From positions 1 to 39,093 of the IMG/VR virus record IMGVR_UViG_3300025122_000053: DNA of 39,093 bases; one strand, 5' to 3'. A program made the position numbers and the translations under genes. The stretch is from a virus. The notes under the pieces are model-generated. The model saw nothing but the letters and a program-made list of their open reading frames with translations. It was not told the DNA's origin and did no database searches. This document shows positions 68 through 39,093 of the stretch, piece after piece. Numbering within the stretch: position 1 is the stretch's first letter; each line of letters begins with the position of its first letter.

Positions 68-235
68 TTATTTTACTTTATGTTTATTTTCCTCATACCA
101 TTGACGCACTGCATTATTAATCATGCTGTTGAAATTAATATCTAGACTGCTACATGTCTTTTTAATCTTTGGCAACATTTCTAATGTTTCGTTTTGCCAG
201 CGTAATGAATGTGTGTCTTTAATTATCTTTTGCAT
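68..235 (-). CDS. Arc-like ribbon-helix-helix repressor (left copy)
   Basis: This 55-residue protein starts at the ATG at 233-235. Residues 9-20 (HSLRWQNETLEM) match the Arc/Mnt beta-strand plus first helix: in Arc the strand before LRW enters the DNA major groove. Residues 34-50 (NFNSMINNAVRQWYEEN) match the second helix with its usual Asn-Ser start. Such proteins bind as dimers of dimers to short palindromes, and palindromes of CATGTC lie on both sides of the gene. There is no ribosome site. A promoter with TTGACA (265-270) and TAGTTT (242-247) places the first transcribed base at about the ATG. A second, 96%-similar copy sits at 38521-38688. The family assignment is firm; the target genes are inferred. 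Confidence 0.8.
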   Translation of the reverse strand: MQKIIKDTHSLRWQNETLEMLPKIKKTCSSLDINFNSMINNAVRQWYEENKHKVK

Positions 236-300: not shown

Positions 301-762
301 ATGGCAAAGAAACCAGAGACAAAAGCAGAGAAGAACAAACGGTTGAATGAGTTGAATCGCAAGACTAAAGCAATGAAGGGTTTAACACTTCAACAAAGAA
401 AGATAGTCAAAGAAGTAGGGAACCCAGAACATAAGACATTAAGTGAGGTGTCTAAGGCAGCAGGCTTAAGTCAAGCACCGGCATCTCGTAGTCAAATCTA
501 TAGGGATCTAAAGAGTGCAAAGCTACAGAGAGCTATCCAGTTATACTATGCCAATGGAGAGAAAAATTTCCTGGCAGACATAGCTAGAGGCACAATTGTT
601 GACGTGATTGAGGATGAAACAGTAGATCCAAGCGTAAAATCTCCATATGTCAAGCTGGCAGCCCAGATATCAGGTGATTTAAAGAACGTAAACGTCAATC
701 ACTCAATCACTTATAGCAAAGATGATGTGCTTCAAGCACTCAAGGACTTAATGTCTAGTTGA
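301..762 (+). CDS. terS: Terminase small subunit
   Basis: This 153-residue protein has a basic N-terminus (1-30), a helix-turn-helix region (about 44-70: HKTLSEVSKAAGLSQAPASR, then IYRDL) and a C-terminal half expected to form the oligomer core. Size, helix-turn-helix and position upstream of the large terminase gene fit the small packaging subunit, which recognises the packaging start on phage DNA. Unlike most phages, about 1.5 kb of tiny genes separates it from terL. Translation starts at an ATG with no ribosome site, seven bases after a TATAAT box. The right-end copy differs in the helix-turn-helix by one codon and several residues but is identical from residue 73 on. A helix-turn-helix regulator is the main alternative. 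Confidence 0.75.
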   Translation: MAKKPETKAEKNKRLNELNRKTKAMKGLTLQQRKIVKEVGNPEHKTLSEVSKAAGLSQAPASRSQIYRDLKSAKLQRAIQLYYANGEKNFLADIARGTIVDVIEDETVDPSVKSPYVKLAAQISGDLKNVNVNHSITYSKDDVLQALKDLMSS

Positions 763-2098: not shown

Positions 2099-2129
2099 AT
2101 TTTAGCATACCAGTAAAGTATGATATAAT
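2099..2129. promoter_or_regulatory. Back-to-back -10 elements before terL
   Basis: On the minus strand TGC-TAAAAT (core 2099-2104) faces the 61-residue gene. On the plus strand TGA-TATAAT (core 2124-2129) faces the zinc-ribbon gene and terL. Both are extended -10 elements without clear -35 boxes. Downstream, TCAGGTT and AACCTGA could pair in the terL leader. Confidence 0.5.
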
Positions 2130-8819: not shown

Positions 8820-9011
8820 ATGTGGACACCTACATGTTTTGTAAAACGACCTTTTGGAAAACCTCTGGAGGTGTCCCGTTGTCGTACAGATTATGCTTTA
8901 GTGACCGATGATCAATCGTGTTTAAAGAAACACGCTGGTCACTATGTTGCACAACCTGTAGTAATTAAATATTGGGAGAGAATTTCTATATGGCTGAGAA
9001 TCATAAGGTAG
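8820..9011 (+). CDS. Small hypothetical protein (63 aa)
   Basis: It starts at an ATG with AAGGAAAC upstream, three residues-worth after the previous gene, and overlaps the glycosyltransferase start by 22 bases. It contains three cysteines and basic segments, with a hydrophobic Trp/Ile-rich end. It has no recognised family and may be only an open leader region before the transferase gene. Confidence 0.4.
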   Translation: MWTPTCFVKRPFGKPLEVSRCRTDYALVTDDQSCLKKHAGHYVAQPVVIKYWERISIWLRIIR

Positions 9012-9733
9012 TAAAAGTTGCTATTGCAATTCCGAATAACGGATATACACAAGTAGAATCCTATGAAAACAGACTCTTAAACTTTTTGCATTTAGGAAGA
9101 TTGGCCGAAAGAAGTAAGAACGAACCTGTTGAATTTGATTTCTATTTCTTTGTAATAGGAAGAACTTTTACCCCTATGGCTAGAGAAGAAGCTGTTAAGA
9201 ATTCTCTAGAGGCTGGAATGGATTATCTGTGGATGATTGATGACGATATGATCGCAGATAACGATATTTTTGAAAGATTATACAGACACGATGTTGATAT
9301 CGTTGGTGGACTAGCATTCACAAGGAATCCACCCTTCAAACCCGTTATCTATTCTTGTATAGATGGCTGGGATCCTATTGATAAGAAAGATTACTTTATC
9401 AACCATTACATCATGAATTATCCAAAAGATAAGTTGGTTGAATGTGATGCATTTGGTTTCGGTACAGCTCTTATTAAAATGGATGTGTTTAGAAAAATGA
9501 AACCACCTTATTTTGCTCTATCATCACAAACAGGTGAAGACATTCTCTTTTGTTACAACGCTAAGAAGTATGGTTTTAAAGTTTATGTTGATACATCTAC
9601 AAAGTTAGGTCATCTAGGAAATCCAATTAAAGTGACTGAAGATTCAGCTCATGCTTATTGGAAAGAAAGCAACCTACAAGTAGAGAGACACAACGGTGAA
9701 TACATCAAATACAAAACGACAGAGGTGTCATGA
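8990..9733 (+). CDS. GT-A type glycosyltransferase
   Basis: This 247-residue protein begins with a Rossmann-like VKVAIAIPNNGYT strand, has a central TPMAREEAVKNSLEAGMDYL helix-strand and the acidic motif IDDDM (84-86 DDD), which in GT-A folds coordinates the metal and sugar nucleotide. VGGLAFTRNPP follows, and a GEDILFCYNAKKYG segment matches the acceptor-site helix. The ATG at 8990 is chosen over an upstream TTG because GGGAGAG is correctly spaced. First of three overlapping sugar-modification genes. Acceptor unknown: virion protein or host glycan. Confidence 0.8.
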   Translation: MAENHKVVKVAIAIPNNGYTQVESYENRLLNFLHLGRLAERSKNEPVEFDFYFFVIGRTFTPMAREEAVKNSLEAGMDYLWMIDDDMIADNDIFERLYRHDVDIVGGLAFTRNPPFKPVIYSCIDGWDPIDKKDYFINHYIMNYPKDKLVECDAFGFGTALIKMDVFRKMKPPYFALSSQTGEDILFCYNAKKYGFKVYVDTSTKLGHLGNPIKVTEDSAHAYWKESNLQVERHNGEYIKYKTTEVS

Positions 9734-10980
9734 TAGCAACAGTGATAATTCCAACATATGATTCAATTGATTACCTGAAGAATTGCGTAGAGTCTATTCT
9801 AAAACACAACCAAGGTATTGCAGATATAGTTGTTGTTAATAACGGCAAAGCTCCATTAGAAACTATATTACCTAAAGATAAATTACTTAAGATTGTTAAT
9901 ACAGAGAAAAACCTTGGATGGGAAGGTGGTTTAAAAGAAGGTCTTAAACACACGGATAGCGAATTTATTGTGTTTATGAATGATGATACCTTTGTTCCTC
10001 AGACATCAAGTCACTGGCTAATTAACCTATTGTTTCCATTTCACGATAAGAAAGTAGCAGCGGTTGGACCTACTTCAAATTGCGTATCAGGATTACAAAA
10101 CATATTTCACCCTAATACACCTAAAGACATTGTAACTACAAGTTATTTAATTGGATTTTGCGTAGCGGTAAGAAGAAGTGCTTTAGAAGAGGTTGGTGGA
10201 ATCGATGACACGCTTCCTGGGGGGGATGACTTCGATTTATCAATGAGATTCTTAAAAGCTGGTTATAAGCTTTTAATTCAACCAAGCGTGATGATCTATC
10301 ATCATGGTTTTGTGACAGGAACTAAAGTTCATGGTCTACCAGATCAACCTATGGGCTGGAACTCGATTGATATGATTGATAGAACCAATAAAGCTTTAAT
10401 TCAAAAGCATGGTTTTAAATTATTCCTCGAGTGTCAAAGGCAGCCAATAGAGGGTATTCACGAAATGAAAGAAGGGGATATGGAAGGGGATCTTGTTAGA
10501 AGCTATATCACAGGCGAACAAGTTGTTGAACTGGGTTGTGGCTTCAGAAAAACAATTGAAAACTCTATAGGTGTAGATAGGATTAAAAAAGGAGATGCAA
10601 TTTCAACCCTTAGCAATGAATTAAGTGTTGCTGACATTGAAGCAAATGCAGAAGAAGAGTTACCGTTTGAAACAGATAGTGTAGATACGATTATAGCTAG
10701 ACATTTATTAGAACATTGTGTGGATCTATCGAAGACCATTAAAGAGTGGCGAAGAGTATTAAAACCTGATGGACGGCTTATCATTGCCGTTCCAGATCAA
10801 ACGATAGGCGATACCATTCCAATGAATCCAGAACCCGTTCATGCCTTTACTAAATCAAGCTTACCTTCATTATTAGAGATGTTCGGTTTCCATGTTGTTG
10901 CAAATGTTGATGTAGAGAATTTTGTGAGTTTTGTAACGGTAGCTGAAAAGGTTAAAAAAGGGGCTGAAATCTATGCATAG
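9730..10980 (+). CDS. Family 2 glycosyltransferase fused to SAM methyltransferase
   Basis: This 416-residue protein has two domains. Residues 1-235 are a GT2 transferase: VIIPTYDSIDYL, NLGWEGG, MNDDTF (metal-binding NDD at 84-86) and GGDDFDLSMRFLKAGYKL, the usual conserved acceptor-site helix. Residues about 258-400 form a class I methyltransferase: VVELGCG (265-271) binds S-adenosylmethionine, then ARHLLEHC and WRRVLKPDGRLIIAVPD as in type 11 methyltransferases. It overlaps both neighbours by a few bases. The fusion suggests one enzyme adds and then methylates a sugar, or modifies a glycan and its carrier together. Confidence 0.85.
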   Translation: MIATVIIPTYDSIDYLKNCVESILKHNQGIADIVVVNNGKAPLETILPKDKLLKIVNTEKNLGWEGGLKEGLKHTDSEFIVFMNDDTFVPQTSSHWLINLLFPFHDKKVAAVGPTSNCVSGLQNIFHPNTPKDIVTTSYLIGFCVAVRRSALEEVGGIDDTLPGGDDFDLSMRFLKAGYKLLIQPSVMIYHHGFVTGTKVHGLPDQPMGWNSIDMIDRTNKALIQKHGFKLFLECQRQPIEGIHEMKEGDMEGDLVRSYITGEQVVELGCGFRKTIENSIGVDRIKKGDAISTLSNELSVADIEANAEEELPFETDSVDTIIARHLLEHCVDLSKTIKEWRRVLKPDGRLIIAVPDQTIGDTIPMNPEPVHAFTKSSLPSLLEMFGFHVVANVDVENFVSFVTVAEKVKKGAEIYA

Positions 10981-11851
10981 ACTAGCGATATACTATGAAA
11001 ATCGATTAGGACGCAATGATGGAAATCCATTATATGTGTGGAATGATTTAAAAAACAGACAGAAGGATAACGAATTAGAAATAGACCATTTTATTCCAGA
11101 TGGAGATGTGCATGTATTTGGTAATTATGATTTTCATCTTTATGTTGATTGGGGTGAAGATGCCCTATATGGAATGCTACCTTACGTTCCTTTCAAGACT
11201 CCTAAACCAAATCTATGTTGGATGAGTGACACCCACCTAGATGGTGGTTGGAGACTAGAAAAGGCTAAAGAATTTGATATTGTTTTCTTCGCTCAACAGA
11301 GTGCAGTAGAAGATGCTAAGAAAGCTGGAATTGAACATGCCTTGTGGCTTCCTCACGCGGTCTGTCCACAAGCCTATCCTAATTACGAAATACCTGGAAA
11401 GAAAACTGACATTTGTTTTGTAGGTCATATTAACTCCGGCAACAGGATAGATGCTTTGGATACCATGTTTAAAGAATTTCCAAACTTCTTTTACGGACAA
11501 AGACTATTTGAAGAAGCTGCAAGAAAGTATTGTGAATCTAAAATAGTATTTAATATCTCCATTAAAGATGATCTCAATATGCGTTGCTTTGAAGCCTTAG
11601 CAACAGGATCTTTTTTACTAACCAATGACATCCCAGAACTTCATGCTGTATTCGAAGATGGCAAACATCTTGTTACCTACAAGGACATGGATGAGGCTGT
11701 TGAGAAGGCGAAGTATTATATAGAGCATGATGAAGAAAGAGAAAAGATAGCAAGAGAAGGAATGCGATACGTATTAGAGAATCACACGATTCATCATCGC
11801 GTTAATAGAATGTTAGAAGAAATCAATAAGAAATTAGAGGTGAAAGTTTGA
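10973..11851 (+). CDS. CgeB-like (GT-B) glycosyltransferase
   Basis: This 292-residue protein has a loose N-terminal domain (DVHVFGNYDFHLYVDWGED) and a C-terminal GT-B half: DICFVGHINSGNR, FNISIKDDLNMRCFEALATG, and LTNDIPELHAVFEDGKHLV, matching the nucleotide-sugar site of CgeB/Glyco_trans_1_2 proteins. The C-terminal helix AREGMRYVLENHTIHHRV is also typical. It overlaps the upstream transferase by 8 bases and the adaptor gene by 4 bases, so the cassette is fused into the structural operon and expressed with it. Confidence 0.8.
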   Translation: MHRLAIYYENRLGRNDGNPLYVWNDLKNRQKDNELEIDHFIPDGDVHVFGNYDFHLYVDWGEDALYGMLPYVPFKTPKPNLCWMSDTHLDGGWRLEKAKEFDIVFFAQQSAVEDAKKAGIEHALWLPHAVCPQAYPNYEIPGKKTDICFVGHINSGNRIDALDTMFKEFPNFFYGQRLFEEAARKYCESKIVFNISIKDDLNMRCFEALATGSFLLTNDIPELHAVFEDGKHLVTYKDMDEAVEKAKYYIEHDEEREKIAREGMRYVLENHTIHHRVNRMLEEINKKLEVKV

Positions 11852-35332: not shown

Positions 35333-35502
35333 CCGTCCCTCCTTGCTTCGTTTAGGTTAAAATCAGCTAACGGATCACCAAATCTTTCTTCTTCTAACTT
35401 TTTAGCCCTAGCACTCAAACTTTCAAAGAGCTTAAACATTGAATCCTGTATCTCTTTTATCTTTTTTAGTTCAGCATTTATTAACTCTTTCTTTTCATCC
35501 AT
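35329..35502 (-). CDS. Small coiled-coil protein (57 aa)
   Basis: Charged helical peptide (ELINAELKKIKEIQDSMFKL) with coiled-coil spacing. Its ATG overlaps the stop of the initiator gene (TAATG), and its stop overlaps the next ATG. May be a helper of the initiator or a helicase loader; nothing recognised. Confidence 0.55.
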   Translation of the reverse strand: MDEKKELINAELKKIKEIQDSMFKLFESLSARAKKLEEERFGDPLADFNLNEARRDG

Positions 35503-36239
35503 TAATCTTTTCTCCTTGTCATTTGTTGCAGTTGTTTTAAACGATCCTGGCGTTCCTTCTCTTTAAGATTGTCGTTCTGTCCTTCTAATTCTTCTTTACG
35601 CAAATTCAACCAAGTCTCAAACCTTTGATCCCAATAAATAACTCCTTTACGCTTATCTCTTGGAACAGACTTGACCTTACGGGTGTATATCTCTAAGGCA
35701 TTGTCTAAATCGATTGTCGGAAACTTTTTAGTGAAGTCTTCTCTGATTATGTCTAAATTTATGAACGTTTGTGTCTTCCAGTCGTACTTAAACCTTAACT
35801 CTGTGAAATATGTGTTTCTTTTTAGTTTCTTTTCGAGTACCTCTGAGTATCTTGGGGAAAGGGGACTCGCGGAATCAGGGGATAGGGGGTTGTTGGAGCT
35901 TCTTAAAGCATTGGTAATAGTTGATCTATCGAAATTATCGAGGATTTTATTTTTAATAAAATCAAAAGCTTGCTTTAAAGCTTCTAGACTTAAAGCTTCT
36001 ATAGAAGCTTTATACTTATTTAAACTACTTATAGTTGTGAAGCTTCTACTAGAGGCTTCTATATAAGCTTTATATATATCATTAATAGGCGGATTTTTTC
36101 TTTTTGGTTCTTTTTCTTTTGAATCGAACTGGTCGGAGTTGGGTTGGTTGTTTAGGAGGTCGGTTAGGGGGGCTGTGGACTCGTAGAAGAAGTTCTTTAG
36201 CTCTTCGCGAATGATTAGACGGATTTCGTACTGATCCAA
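35502..36239 (-). CDS. Replication initiator candidate carrying iterons
   Basis: This 245-residue protein is basic and helical at both ends. Residues about 55-95 are encoded by a cluster of near-identical AAGCTTCTA repeats, giving repeated KAYIEAS and KASIEALSLEALKQ peptides. Lambda O works the same way: origin iterons sit inside the initiator gene. The C-terminal half (RFKYDWKTQTFINLDIIRED, TRKVKSVPRDKRKGVIYWDQ) is charged and could recruit helicase. TTG start with GGGGGG upstream. No helix-turn-helix was clearly identified. Role inferred from the iterons and from the helicase in the same operon. Confidence 0.5.
   Translation of the reverse strand: MDQYEIRLIIREELKNFFYESTAPLTDLLNNQPNSDQFDSKEKEPKRKNPPINDIYKAYIEASSRSFTTISSLNKYKASIEALSLEALKQAFDFIKNKILDNFDRSTITNALRSSNNPLSPDSASPLSPRYSEVLEKKLKRNTYFTELRFKYDWKTQTFINLDIIREDFTKKFPTIDLDNALEIYTRKVKSVPRDKRKGVIYWDQRFETWLNLRKEELEGQNDNLKEKERQDRLKQLQQMTRRKD
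35964..36074. other. Candidate replication origin: iteron cluster
   Basis: About seven copies of AAGCTTCTA-like units occur in 111 bases: near 35964 (AAAGCTTGC), 35976-35986, 35991-36002, 36001-36012 (inverted), 36038-36048, 36051-36061 and 36062-36074 (inverted). The pair at 35991-36012 is a perfect 22-base palindrome. AT-rich DNA flanks the cluster on both sides (35941-35963 and 36063-36088). This matches the lambda-type origin layout of iterons plus AT-rich unwinding element. The window contains no other comparable repeat cluster. Confidence 0.6.
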
Positions 36240-36889: not shown

Positions 36890-37168
36890 ATGAATTACGG
36901 AAATTACTTTGCAAAACTATGGAGTTCTAAGCGTCCAGACCTAACCATGACCAGCTTCGCAAGAGAGCTAGGCGTTACCCAACCGTTTGTAAAGCAGATT
37001 GAAATGAATATTAGGTCTCCTAGGAAAGAAATGCGCGACAAGATGATTAGGATACTAGGCTTGAAAGGCAAGGAGTGTGATGATTTTATATACAACTCTA
37101 TCCTATTTAGATTAGATGATAGTGATGAAGGGGATATGATTAGGCTTCAGAGGAAGGGTTATTTTTAA
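36890..37168 (+). CDS. XRE-family repressor
   Basis: This 92-residue protein has a Cro/CI-type helix-turn-helix: LTMTSFARELGVTQPFVKQI (about 18-37), followed by RSPRKEMRDKMIRIL. The ATG at 36890 lies seven bases after TATTAT with no ribosome site, so it is another leaderless candidate; a GTG two codons upstream is the alternative start. It is divergent from the leftward replication operon and its end overlaps the convergent sigma-like gene by 29 bases. Probable control of replication genes from palindromes in the intergenic region. Confidence 0.75.
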   Translation: MNYGNYFAKLWSSKRPDLTMTSFARELGVTQPFVKQIEMNIRSPRKEMRDKMIRILGLKGKECDDFIYNSILFRLDDSDEGDMIRLQRKGYF

Positions 37169-37751
37169 TATTAAGAAATTCTTGTAAGCGACCATATCTA
37201 TATGGGTGCCTTAACATCATTAAACCTTTAGCTTCTATTTGCCTCACTCTATCACTACTGATTTTGTAAATATTTGCTATATCCTTAAGAGTTTCACCCT
37301 CCATGCGCATCATTAGAATCTTGCTAGACCTTGGGTCTATAGTTTTTAATGCTCTATGCACTTCCTCTTTCATTTCATCATCCATAGCACTATCAACAGT
37401 TGAGTCTGGCGCTTCTATTTGTTTTATGTCTACACCTGACTCGATCATATCCGTGAATGAAGTCTCTATCACTGTCTTTGTTTCTTTCTTACCGTAGAGT
37501 TCAATAGGGAAGAGGTCTTCGGGGATTATCTTTACTGCTTTTGATATCTTAATACAAATATCTTTATATTCTTTTGAGTTCTTCTTTAAAGGATGAAAGG
37601 CTAGATTCAACAAACTACCCACGATACTACCGGTTAGTTTAATCCTTTTATGCTTCCTACAGAAATCAGCCACTGATTCGTAGTTGTCAAATATTGCATG
37701 CCATAAGATATTATTTCTAACTCTGGCTTCTATTCGTAGGTTTTTAGTCAT
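37140..37751 (-). CDS. Cro-like domain joined to sigma region 4
   Basis: This 203-residue protein has two parts. Residues about 18-85 resemble a Cro/XRE-type domain (NYESVADFCRKHKRIKLTGS, ending SKAVKIIPEDLFP, a common end of such domains). Residues about 128-192 match region 4 of primary sigma factors: LKTIDPRSSKILMMRMEGE, TLKDIANIYKISSDRVRQIE, AKGLMMLRHPYRYGRLQEFL; this binds the -35 box. No region 2 is present, so it cannot melt a -10 box by itself. It may redirect host polymerase or block -35 boxes. AAGGGGAAAG precedes the ATG. Sigma-4 match is strong; N-terminal assignment weaker. Confidence 0.8.
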   Translation of the reverse strand: MTKNLRIEARVRNNILWHAIFDNYESVADFCRKHKRIKLTGSIVGSLLNLAFHPLKKNSKEYKDICIKISKAVKIIPEDLFPIELYGKKETKTVIETSFTDMIESGVDIKQIEAPDSTVDSAMDDEMKEEVHRALKTIDPRSSKILMMRMEGETLKDIANIYKISSDRVRQIEAKGLMMLRHPYRYGRLQEFLNIKNNPSSEA

Positions 37752-37952: not shown

Positions 37953-38393
37953 TTAGGCTATAGATTCAAGATATACATTTTTAATATCTTCGTTTCGGTA
38001 TAGGTTATCGTTTGCAACTTCTTCCTTAACCATGTCAAAAAACCTAGTCAGGTATTTAGAGAACTTTTTAGCTAGGTCTTGGGGGCTCTTTGACTTAATT
38101 ATTCTATAACTCACTTTTTTATGACTCATTGCATAATATTTGCTTTCAGGCTTACAACTTAAACGATGGTAATATCGCTCTAATTGTAGACCTTCGTCGT
38201 TTTCTCTTATAGTAAACACTCCATAACCACTGTCATTTTCTCTTATATTATTAGAACAGTCTCTTTGCTCTTTTATTAATCCTATTGAGATATGAACATC
38301 ATCGCCGAGACAGGCGCGTCTCGTCTCAAAGAAGCCATTGGGGGCTTGTTTTAAATACTCTTCTTTTAACAACTCAATTGCTTTCGTCTTCAT
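37953..38393 (-). CDS. First leftward early protein, hypothetical (146 aa)
   Basis: The protein has an N-terminal helix (KTKAIELLKEEYLKQAPNGF), a strand-rich middle (GYGVFTIRENDEGLQLERY) and a C-terminal helix (DLAKKFSKYLTRFFDMVKEE). ATG at 38391-38393 is preferred since AAGGA lies nine bases upstream; an upstream in-frame ATG at 38414 would sit within the operator palindrome. First gene behind the RHH-controlled leftward promoter, so it would be among the first made. No family recognised. Confidence 0.6.
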   Translation of the reverse strand: MKTKAIELLKEEYLKQAPNGFFETRRACLGDDVHISIGLIKEQRDCSNNIRENDSGYGVFTIRENDEGLQLERYYHRLSCKPESKYYAMSHKKVSYRIIKSKSPQDLAKKFSKYLTRFFDMVKEEVANDNLYRNEDIKNVYLESIA

Positions 38394-38408
38394 CTTCCAC
38401 CGTCCTTT

Positions 38409-38423
38409 CGTCATGTCATGACG
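38409..38423. promoter_or_regulatory. Third RHH-type operator, in early leader
   Basis: CGTCATG-T-CATGACG is a perfect 7-base inverted repeat with one central base, built from the same CATG(T/A)C words as the two operators by the RHH gene. It sits in the leader of the leftward operon, 16 bases before the start codon, so binding there could block elongation or act as auxiliary site. That it is bound by the same protein is inferred. Confidence 0.5.
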
Positions 38424-38479
38424 TTTGTTGGTTAAAAAATATATGTGTTTCTTTGTTTCTATTCGATTATGTTTTAAAG

Positions 38480-38507
38480 ATTATCATGTCTTGTCATGAC
38501 ATGTCAA
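38480..38507 (-). promoter_or_regulatory. Leftward early promoter and operator (right copy)
   Basis: Minus-strand TTGACA (38502-38507), 16 bases, GATAAT (38480-38485). CATGTC (38485-38490), the palindrome TGTCATGACA (38492-38501) and GACATG (38498-38503) fill the spacer. Transcription would start near 38473, about 80 bases before the first early gene. Half-site spacing differs from the left copy, which has an AA-centred pair. Confidence 0.65.
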
Positions 38508-38520
38508 ATAAAAAAAATAT

Positions 38521-38688
38521 TTATTTTACTTTGTGTTTATTTTCTTCATACCATTGACGAACTGCATCATTAATCATGCTGTTGAAATTAATATCTAGAC
38601 TGATACATGTCTTTTTAATCTTTGGCAACATTTCTAATGTTTCGTTCTGCCAGCGTAATGAATGTGTGTCCTTAATTATCTTTTGCAT
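38521..38688 (-). CDS. Arc-like ribbon-helix-helix repressor (right copy)
   Basis: This 55-residue protein differs from the left copy at two positions (I29 for S, D41 for N). The DNA-contacting strand region (HSLRWQN) is unchanged, so both alleles should read the same operator. Leaderless promoter: TTGACA (38718-38723, minus strand), 17 bases, TATTTT ending seven bases before the ATG. It is the nearest gene to the leftward early promoter and could be co-transcribed with it or shut it off. Confidence 0.8.
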   Translation of the reverse strand: MQKIIKDTHSLRWQNETLEMLPKIKKTCISLDINFNSMINDAVRQWYEENKHKVK

Positions 38689-38715
38689 AAGTACAAAATA
38701 TCAAAAGGCTAGCAT

Positions 38716-38729
38716 CATGTCAAGACATG
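38716..38729. promoter_or_regulatory. Shared RHH/terS operator (right copy)
   Basis: CATGTC-AA-GACATG, identical to 263-276. It overlaps the -35 box of the RHH promoter and lies 14 bases before the TATAAT box of terS, as in the left copy. Confidence 0.6.
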
Positions 38730-38753
38730 ACTATTAAATGCTATAATCTAAGA

Positions 38754-39093
38754 ATGACAAAGAAACCAGAGACGAAAGAAGCGAAGAACAAGAGACTGAA
38801 TGAGTTAAATAGAAAGACTAAAGCGTTAAAGGGTTTAACTCTTCAACAGAAGAAGATCGTTAAGGAGATAGGCAATCCTAAGCATAAAACAGTATCAGAT
38901 GTAGCTAAGACAATAGGGATGCCTCCTTCATCAGCTCGGAGTAAGATCTATAGAGACATTAAAAGCCCAAAGCTACAGAGAGCTATCCAGTTATACTATG
39001 CCAATGGAGAGAAAAATTTCCTGGCAGACATAGCTAGAGGCACAATTGTTGACGTGATTGAGGATGAAACAGTAGATCCAAGCGTAAAATCTC
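38754..39093 (+). CDS. terS: Terminase small subunit, second allele (cut by window end)
   Basis: First 113 codons of a terS allele, running off the window. It encodes a more regular helix-turn-helix (HKTVSDVAKTIGMPPSSARS) than the left copy and lacks one codon there. From the KLQRAIQ segment on it is identical to the left copy. TATAAT (38742-38747) ends six to seven bases before the ATG. Not truncated by mutation; only the window stops. Confidence 0.8.
   Translation, partial: MTKKPETKEAKNKRLNELNRKTKALKGLTLQQKKIVKEIGNPKHKTVSDVAKTIGMPPSSARSKIYRDIKSPKLQRAIQLYYANGEKNFLADIARGTIVDVIEDETVDPSVKS

Follow-up and report, generated by a model that had tools for sequence, protein, structure and literature searches.

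An Arc/RelB-like repressor candidate with palindromic candidate operators at the early and terS promoters of a 39-kb virus genome

The two transcription arms of the virus record under study (39,093 bp with 37% G+C, referred to in its entirety as the window) meet at a gene for a 55-aa protein that is a candidate repressor of the ribbon-helix-helix (RHH) type, akin to Arc and RelB. The gene is surrounded by short palindromes, of which O1 is located within the leftward early promoter, O2 in the region that the RHH and terS promoters have in common, and O3 in the early leader. The reading favoured here is that the protein probably acts as an autorepressor, which also damps the early operon and terS by way of O1 and O2. 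The original prediction had seen in it a single small repressor, a master switch holding down both early genes and packaging; what stands of this is the Arc-like RHH protein together with the candidate operators on the early promoter and the shared RHH/terS region, but not the master switch or the control of packaging as a whole.

The rightward virion arm of the genome includes terL, portal and MCP (phrog_9953), and the leftward early arm includes E1, a sigma-like factor, an exonuclease, HNH, RusA and DnaB. At the arm junction E1 lies to the left of the RHH gene and terS, on the opposite strand, to its right. The set of proteins scanned, in which not every small ORF was represented, contained no integrase, CI-like repressor or lysogeny genes. 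The virion gene block is interrupted by glycosyltransferase and methyltransferase-like genes (8972-11851, plus strand), and a perfect 22-bp palindrome, TAAAGCTTCTATAGAAGCTTTA, is present at 35991-36012 within ORF 35502-36239. Between terS and the next gene there is a long non-coding stretch (763-1121), which contains, near 935-955, a G/C-rich hairpin of the form GGGGGT...ACCCCC with no Rfam match; both the Rfam and the tRNA scans were empty.

What do the two ends of the window represent? They share an exact overlap of 126 bp (positions 518-643 are the same as 38968-39093), ahead of which each end bears an allele of the same RHH-terS stretch (1-644 and 38453-39093). An overlap of this kind is typical of an assembly bubble at k=127. 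The simplest reading is of a circularly mapping genome with one RHH-terS locus, present in the population as two strain variants. In the sibling contig IMGVR_UViG_3300002519_000047 the left allele is joined to the early-arm sequence 38361-38457, with 97 bp identical. Each genome would thus carry one locus, since the 126-bp overlap joins strain variants and the sibling has the left allele at the same place; on these grounds a genome with two RHH copies, each marked by its palindromes, was rejected, and the two alleles of the original prediction are to be understood as two variants of a locus and not as two copies in one genome. The alleles differ at 4% of bases in the RHH gene, about 14% in the RHH-terS spacer and 29% in the 5' half of terS (the HTH region), and are identical in the remaining comparable part of terS, a pattern that looks like recombinational mosaicism.

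The RHH candidate is encoded on the minus strand at 38521-38688, and its left allele (68-235, minus strand) is 96% identical. Its best PHROG match is to the Arc-like repressor family phrog_582, albeit a weak one (E 0.0041 for the left allele and 0.05 for the right), and no RHH model of Pfam or NCBIfam gave a significant match to the 55-aa protein; Pfam Arc and RHH_1 had no match anywhere in the window. In a local alignment with P22 Arc (SLRWQNETLEMLPKI / NLRWPREVLDLVRKV) the score exceeds that of ~99.9% of shuffles (p~0.001), and the protein bears the Arc-like NLRW/SLRW strand and NS motif. The aligned stretch of Arc comprises the DNA-contacting strand and the start of helix A. The AF2 monomer model has two helices, at residues 2-30 and 35-50, such that residues 2-13 are placed in a helix rather than a strand, with low confidence at residues 1-10. 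When this model was used with Foldseek, the weak matches included CopG and CdbA, both of which are RHH proteins. The ORF was where it had been claimed to be, and the 55-aa protein is likely to be of the RHH class; support for this fold, which draws on phrog_582, the SLRW strand and the two-helix model, is moderate.

Three promoters meet around this gene. The leftward early promoter, P_E (38480-38507, minus strand), consists of TTGACA (38507-38502), a 16-nt spacer and GATAAT (38485-38480), and matches the sigma-70 consensus at 11 of 12 positions; its TTGACA is the only one in the window with a -10 partner that matches at 5 of 6. The promoter of the RHH gene itself (38695-38723, minus strand) reads TTGACA-N17-TATTTT, with a weaker -10 of TAGTTT in the left allele. 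The terS promoter is recognised by an extended -10, TGCTATAAT (38739-38747, plus strand), ahead of the terS ATG at 38754, and its -35 is poor; the motif TGNTATAAT is found in the window only in this promoter, in both alleles, and at 2121. In both alleles the -10 boxes of the RHH gene and of terS end exactly 6 nt ahead of the ATG, and both genes lack the Shine-Dalgarno sequence that most genes of this phage possess. For these two reasons both messages are predicted to be leaderless, with the AUG as their 5' end. Within O2 the divergent promoters have coinciding -35 regions, and therefore simultaneous use of the two by polymerase on one DNA molecule is probably impossible.

The terS gene is complete in the left allele (301-762, plus strand, 153 aa), whilst the right allele (38754-39093, plus strand), with 82% identity to the left one, is cut off by the end of the contig, its last part lying in the 126-bp overlap. 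Its identity is positional, being based on the location upstream of terL and an HTH-like N-terminus rather than on a family match: the family search returned a weak sigma-r4-like HTH match (E 0.046), no homologue was found in the phage collection, and the AF2 model, with a pLDDT of 58, was too poor for use.

O1, CATGTCTTGTCATGACATGTC, occupies about 38484-38505, with its core in the spacer of P_E, between TTGACA and GATAAT; O2, TCATGTCAAGACATGA, covers both -35 regions of the RHH and terS promoters at 38715-38730; and O3 is a perfect 15-bp palindrome, CGTCATG-T-CATGACG, in the transcribed early leader at 38409-38423, some 60-75 bp from O1. They have in common a 10-bp core, TGTCAWGAC(A/G), found at 38492-38501 in O1, 38718-38727 in O2 and 38414-38423 in O3, where O3 is one mismatch from the core. 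The left allele keeps the first two, O1 at 32-52 and O2 at 262-277, as had been claimed; O3 is missing from it because the window starts just left of O1, and in the sibling contig the left allele is joined to the same O3.

Clustering of the palindromes at the RHH locus is well above chance. In the window the exact core TGTCAWGACA has four occurrences, which are O1 and O2 in each of the two alleles, and CATG-N6-CATG is likewise confined within the window to O1 and O2 of both. Allowing up to 2 mismatches, CATGTCNNGACATG has 7 matches in the window, all in the two copies of the locus, against 0.96 (sd 1.03) in shuffled sequences. When O2 was used as the query and the left allele excluded, O1 was found at 38484 with up to 3 mismatches to one strand of O2 and up to 2 to the other, for which the chance expectation is 0.56 and 0.05, respectively, per whole genome. 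By this test O3 comes out as the weakest site, as it is reached from O2 only at 4 mismatches, where 4.5 matches are expected per genome, so that the early-leader palindrome of the original prediction is certainly present but makes a weak candidate for an operator. Could the palindromes be RNA hairpins or weak terminators, and not protein sites at all? A terminator scan does flag O1 (minus strand) and O3 (plus strand) as terminator-like, but they would form only weak hairpins (-5 to -6.5 kcal/mol), without good T-runs, and O2 lies upstream of both predicted starts and would be part of neither transcript, which leaves this explanation extremely improbable.

Support for the palindromes as sites for an RHH protein comes from a comparison with RelB. 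The E. coli RelB protein, itself an RHH repressor, binds 12-bp sites of inverted hexads, [A/T]TGT[A/C]A, such as TTGTAATGACAT (PMC2812701), for which the published operator consensus is WTGTMA-TKACAW (PMC2812701). A scan of the window with WTGTMATKACAW found a single exact match, and this is O1 (TTGTCATGACAT at 38491), which differs by one base from the left half of relO, TTGTAATGACAT; O2 and O3 (38413) are each one mismatch from the consensus. With up to 1 mismatch there are eight places in the window, six of them O1, O2 and O3 in the two alleles and two elsewhere in the 39 kb, where base-shuffled sequence would give about 2.8 per whole window. At the whole-window rate, three independent sites within 320 bp have a nominal Poisson p of ~2e-6, a value that is optimistic since the consensus, though not derived from the window and the sole one tried, was chosen after the sites were known. 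The same scan of P22, MW202489 and BUCT555 gave zero matches.

The RelB likeness also invites two other explanations. In one, the palindromes serve a regulator of the host, of the RHH type or another, and are not bound by the phage protein; the RelB consensus is indeed a host-type operator (PMC2812701). The copies, however, are gathered in 320 bp about the RHH gene that the phage itself carries, and none were seen at other phage promoters, and we regard a host regulator as very unlikely. The other is a toxin-antitoxin-like pair, with the RHH protein as a RelB-type antitoxin, E1 as its partner and the palindromes as autoregulatory operators, an arrangement with which the match to a RelB-like consensus and the order of the RHH gene followed by E1 would agree. 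E1 (37953-38393, minus strand; phrog_21515, E 2.7e-11) is the first gene behind P_E, but it has its own promoter and Shine-Dalgarno sequence and shows no match to toxin families, and RelE had no match among the proteins scanned. Its relatives are instead early genes of jumbo phages (Munch/CBB/GAP32-type phages, 28-38% identical), next to which only hypothetical proteins are annotated, and at 55 aa the RHH protein has about the length of an RHH domain by itself, which leaves hardly any space for a tail to neutralise a toxin. A toxin-antitoxin pair thus appears highly improbable. In several jumbo phages the E1 homologue is located in the terminal repeat or close to an end of the genome, and E1 is possibly a host-takeover-type gene common to this 39-kb phage and phages of ~350 kb.

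Returning to the phage protein as ligand of its own operators, the comparison of the two alleles offers a further line of evidence. Within the 65-bp RHH-terS spacer a block of 34 nt (38714-38747), which extends from O2 to the terS -10, is unchanged between the alleles, whilst the other 31 nt carry 9 changes (Fisher p = 0.0006); for O2 alone the invariance has a p of 0.10. The 2 changes that separate the O1 copies of the alleles leave the TGTC/GACA half-sites untouched. Base-for-base conservation, as originally described for the shared operator, therefore holds for O2, and this one allele pair supports a function for both sites.

How, then, might such a system operate? The steps set out here are proposed from what can be observed directly, namely the sequence, the geometry, the clustering and the allele conservation, combined with a fold of moderate support, and binding, repression and timing are inferred from these. 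The RHH protein would be made from its own promoter, and its dimer would place a ribbon of two strands in the palindrome core, TGTCAWGACA. Bound at O1, the dimer would fill the spacer of P_E and so block RNA polymerase, such that once enough protein had accumulated the early genes (E1, the sigma-like factor and the replication genes) would be turned down. At O2, lying over both -35 regions, it would limit its own supply and keep terS low, and terS would rise once the protein was diluted by genome replication or removed. O3 might perhaps serve as a roadblock in the leader.

The point at which this proposal is most readily challenged is terS. An Arc/Cro-like protein could act on O1 and its own promoter only, as an autorepressor that also shuts off early genes, with terS a mere neighbour; a filled O2 would then leave the terS promoter unaffected or even favour it, as competition from the RHH promoter would be gone. 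With its extended -10 TGCTATAAT and poor -35, terS might be weakened less by occupancy of O2, and upstream of terL (2281) the late genes have another extended -10 promoter-like site (TTAGCA-N16-TATAAT with TG, 2102-2129, plus strand) with no palindrome. Against this, O2 spans about -39 to -24, counted from the terS start as predicted, a stretch with which polymerase is normally in contact, and O2 and the terS -10 lie in one unchanged block, so that a circuit without terS is considered rather unlikely. The stronger version of the favoured reading, in which the RHH protein directly times the initiation of packaging, the leaderless divergent promoters make RHH and TerS synthesis mutually exclusive, and O1 shuts the early operon, is offered only tentatively.

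For packaging as a whole the claim has to be reduced: terS has O2, but terL has its own promoter-like site (2121) with no operator, and for this reason terS is the only candidate direct target in the late region and the term master switch is unwarranted. The early operon also encodes a sigma-70-like (region 4) protein (37140-37751, minus strand; PF04545, E 2.2e-11; phrog_351, E 7.8e-15; also matched in NCBIfam), a candidate late transcription factor, and no lysogeny genes were among the proteins scanned. To have the RHH protein make a decision, rather than damp transcription, therefore overreaches. If the favoured circuit is true it would be a minimal one, in which one 55-aa protein and two or three sites of 10-12 bp couple early shut-off to the start of packaging; separate timing of terS versus the other late genes is rarely known in phages.

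Relatives of the locus are few. Searches of viral contigs with RHH, TerS, TerL and the O1-gap-O2 DNA pattern returned only the sibling 3300002519_000047, which is 96-100% identical, and tblastn of RHH and TerS against the phage collection returned nothing; otherwise there was nothing closer than about 37% identity in the collections searched. An MCP-based search gave 80 loci, which, besides the sibling, have in common with the window only the MCP and some portal/virion segments, and the MCP alignment of five sequences was too divergent for scanning. The distant MCP relatives have no Arc-family match and only isolated weak matches to other RHH models, and hence, with two alleles to compare, the RHH-operator arrangement has not been seen as a conserved one. 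Small divergent genes beside the terminase genes of MW202489 and BUCT555 were set aside as not RHH-like, their translations being judged by eye. A search based on E1 led only to jumbo phages, where no site cluster was seen.

Among known systems the closest in kind is immI of P22, where the Arc protein, like the candidate here, is an RHH protein of 53-55 aa with an NLRW/SLRW strand, and where a control region is likewise shared by divergent promoters (Pant/Pmnt). O_arc is annotated within Pant, much as O1 lies within P_E between the -35 and the -10. Unlike in P22, the candidate targets are the main early promoter, a separate promoter of the RHH gene itself and terS; the neighbours are E1 and terS, with no ant or mnt; and the candidate operator is TGTCAWGACA, where that of Arc is ATGATAGAAGCACTCTACTAT. 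With E. coli RelB and relO there is in common the 12-bp dimer site of inverted hexads, exact in O1 and one mismatch away in O2 and O3. The sites here are single ones (O1 with extra half-sites), whereas relO has two abutting sites, and unlike RelB the protein has no tail and no RelE-like partner was found.

The use of an RHH protein in place of the XRE or CI type had been called unusual, which is half right, given the Arc operator inside Pant and SvtR. The latter, from the archaeal virus SIRV1, is a small RHH protein that represses both its own gene and a structural (virion) gene (PMC5569661), although its host and promoters are archaeal, its operator is another and its target is a tail-fibre gene, not terS. 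Control of terS by a repressor is known from SaPI operon I, which contains terS and is under LexA (PMC5052747), but LexA is the SOS repressor of the host, at work there in a phage satellite, and not a phage-encoded RHH protein. Leaderless repressor messages have a precedent in lambda cI (PMC4965119); in comparison, the leaderless state here is no more than a prediction, and one that also takes in the divergent terS. The combination of an RHH repressor with a divergent leaderless terS was not found in the open-access papers searched. The parts of the proposed circuit are thus of a known kind, and it is the wiring, with one RHH protein on the early genes, itself and terS, that would be unusual.
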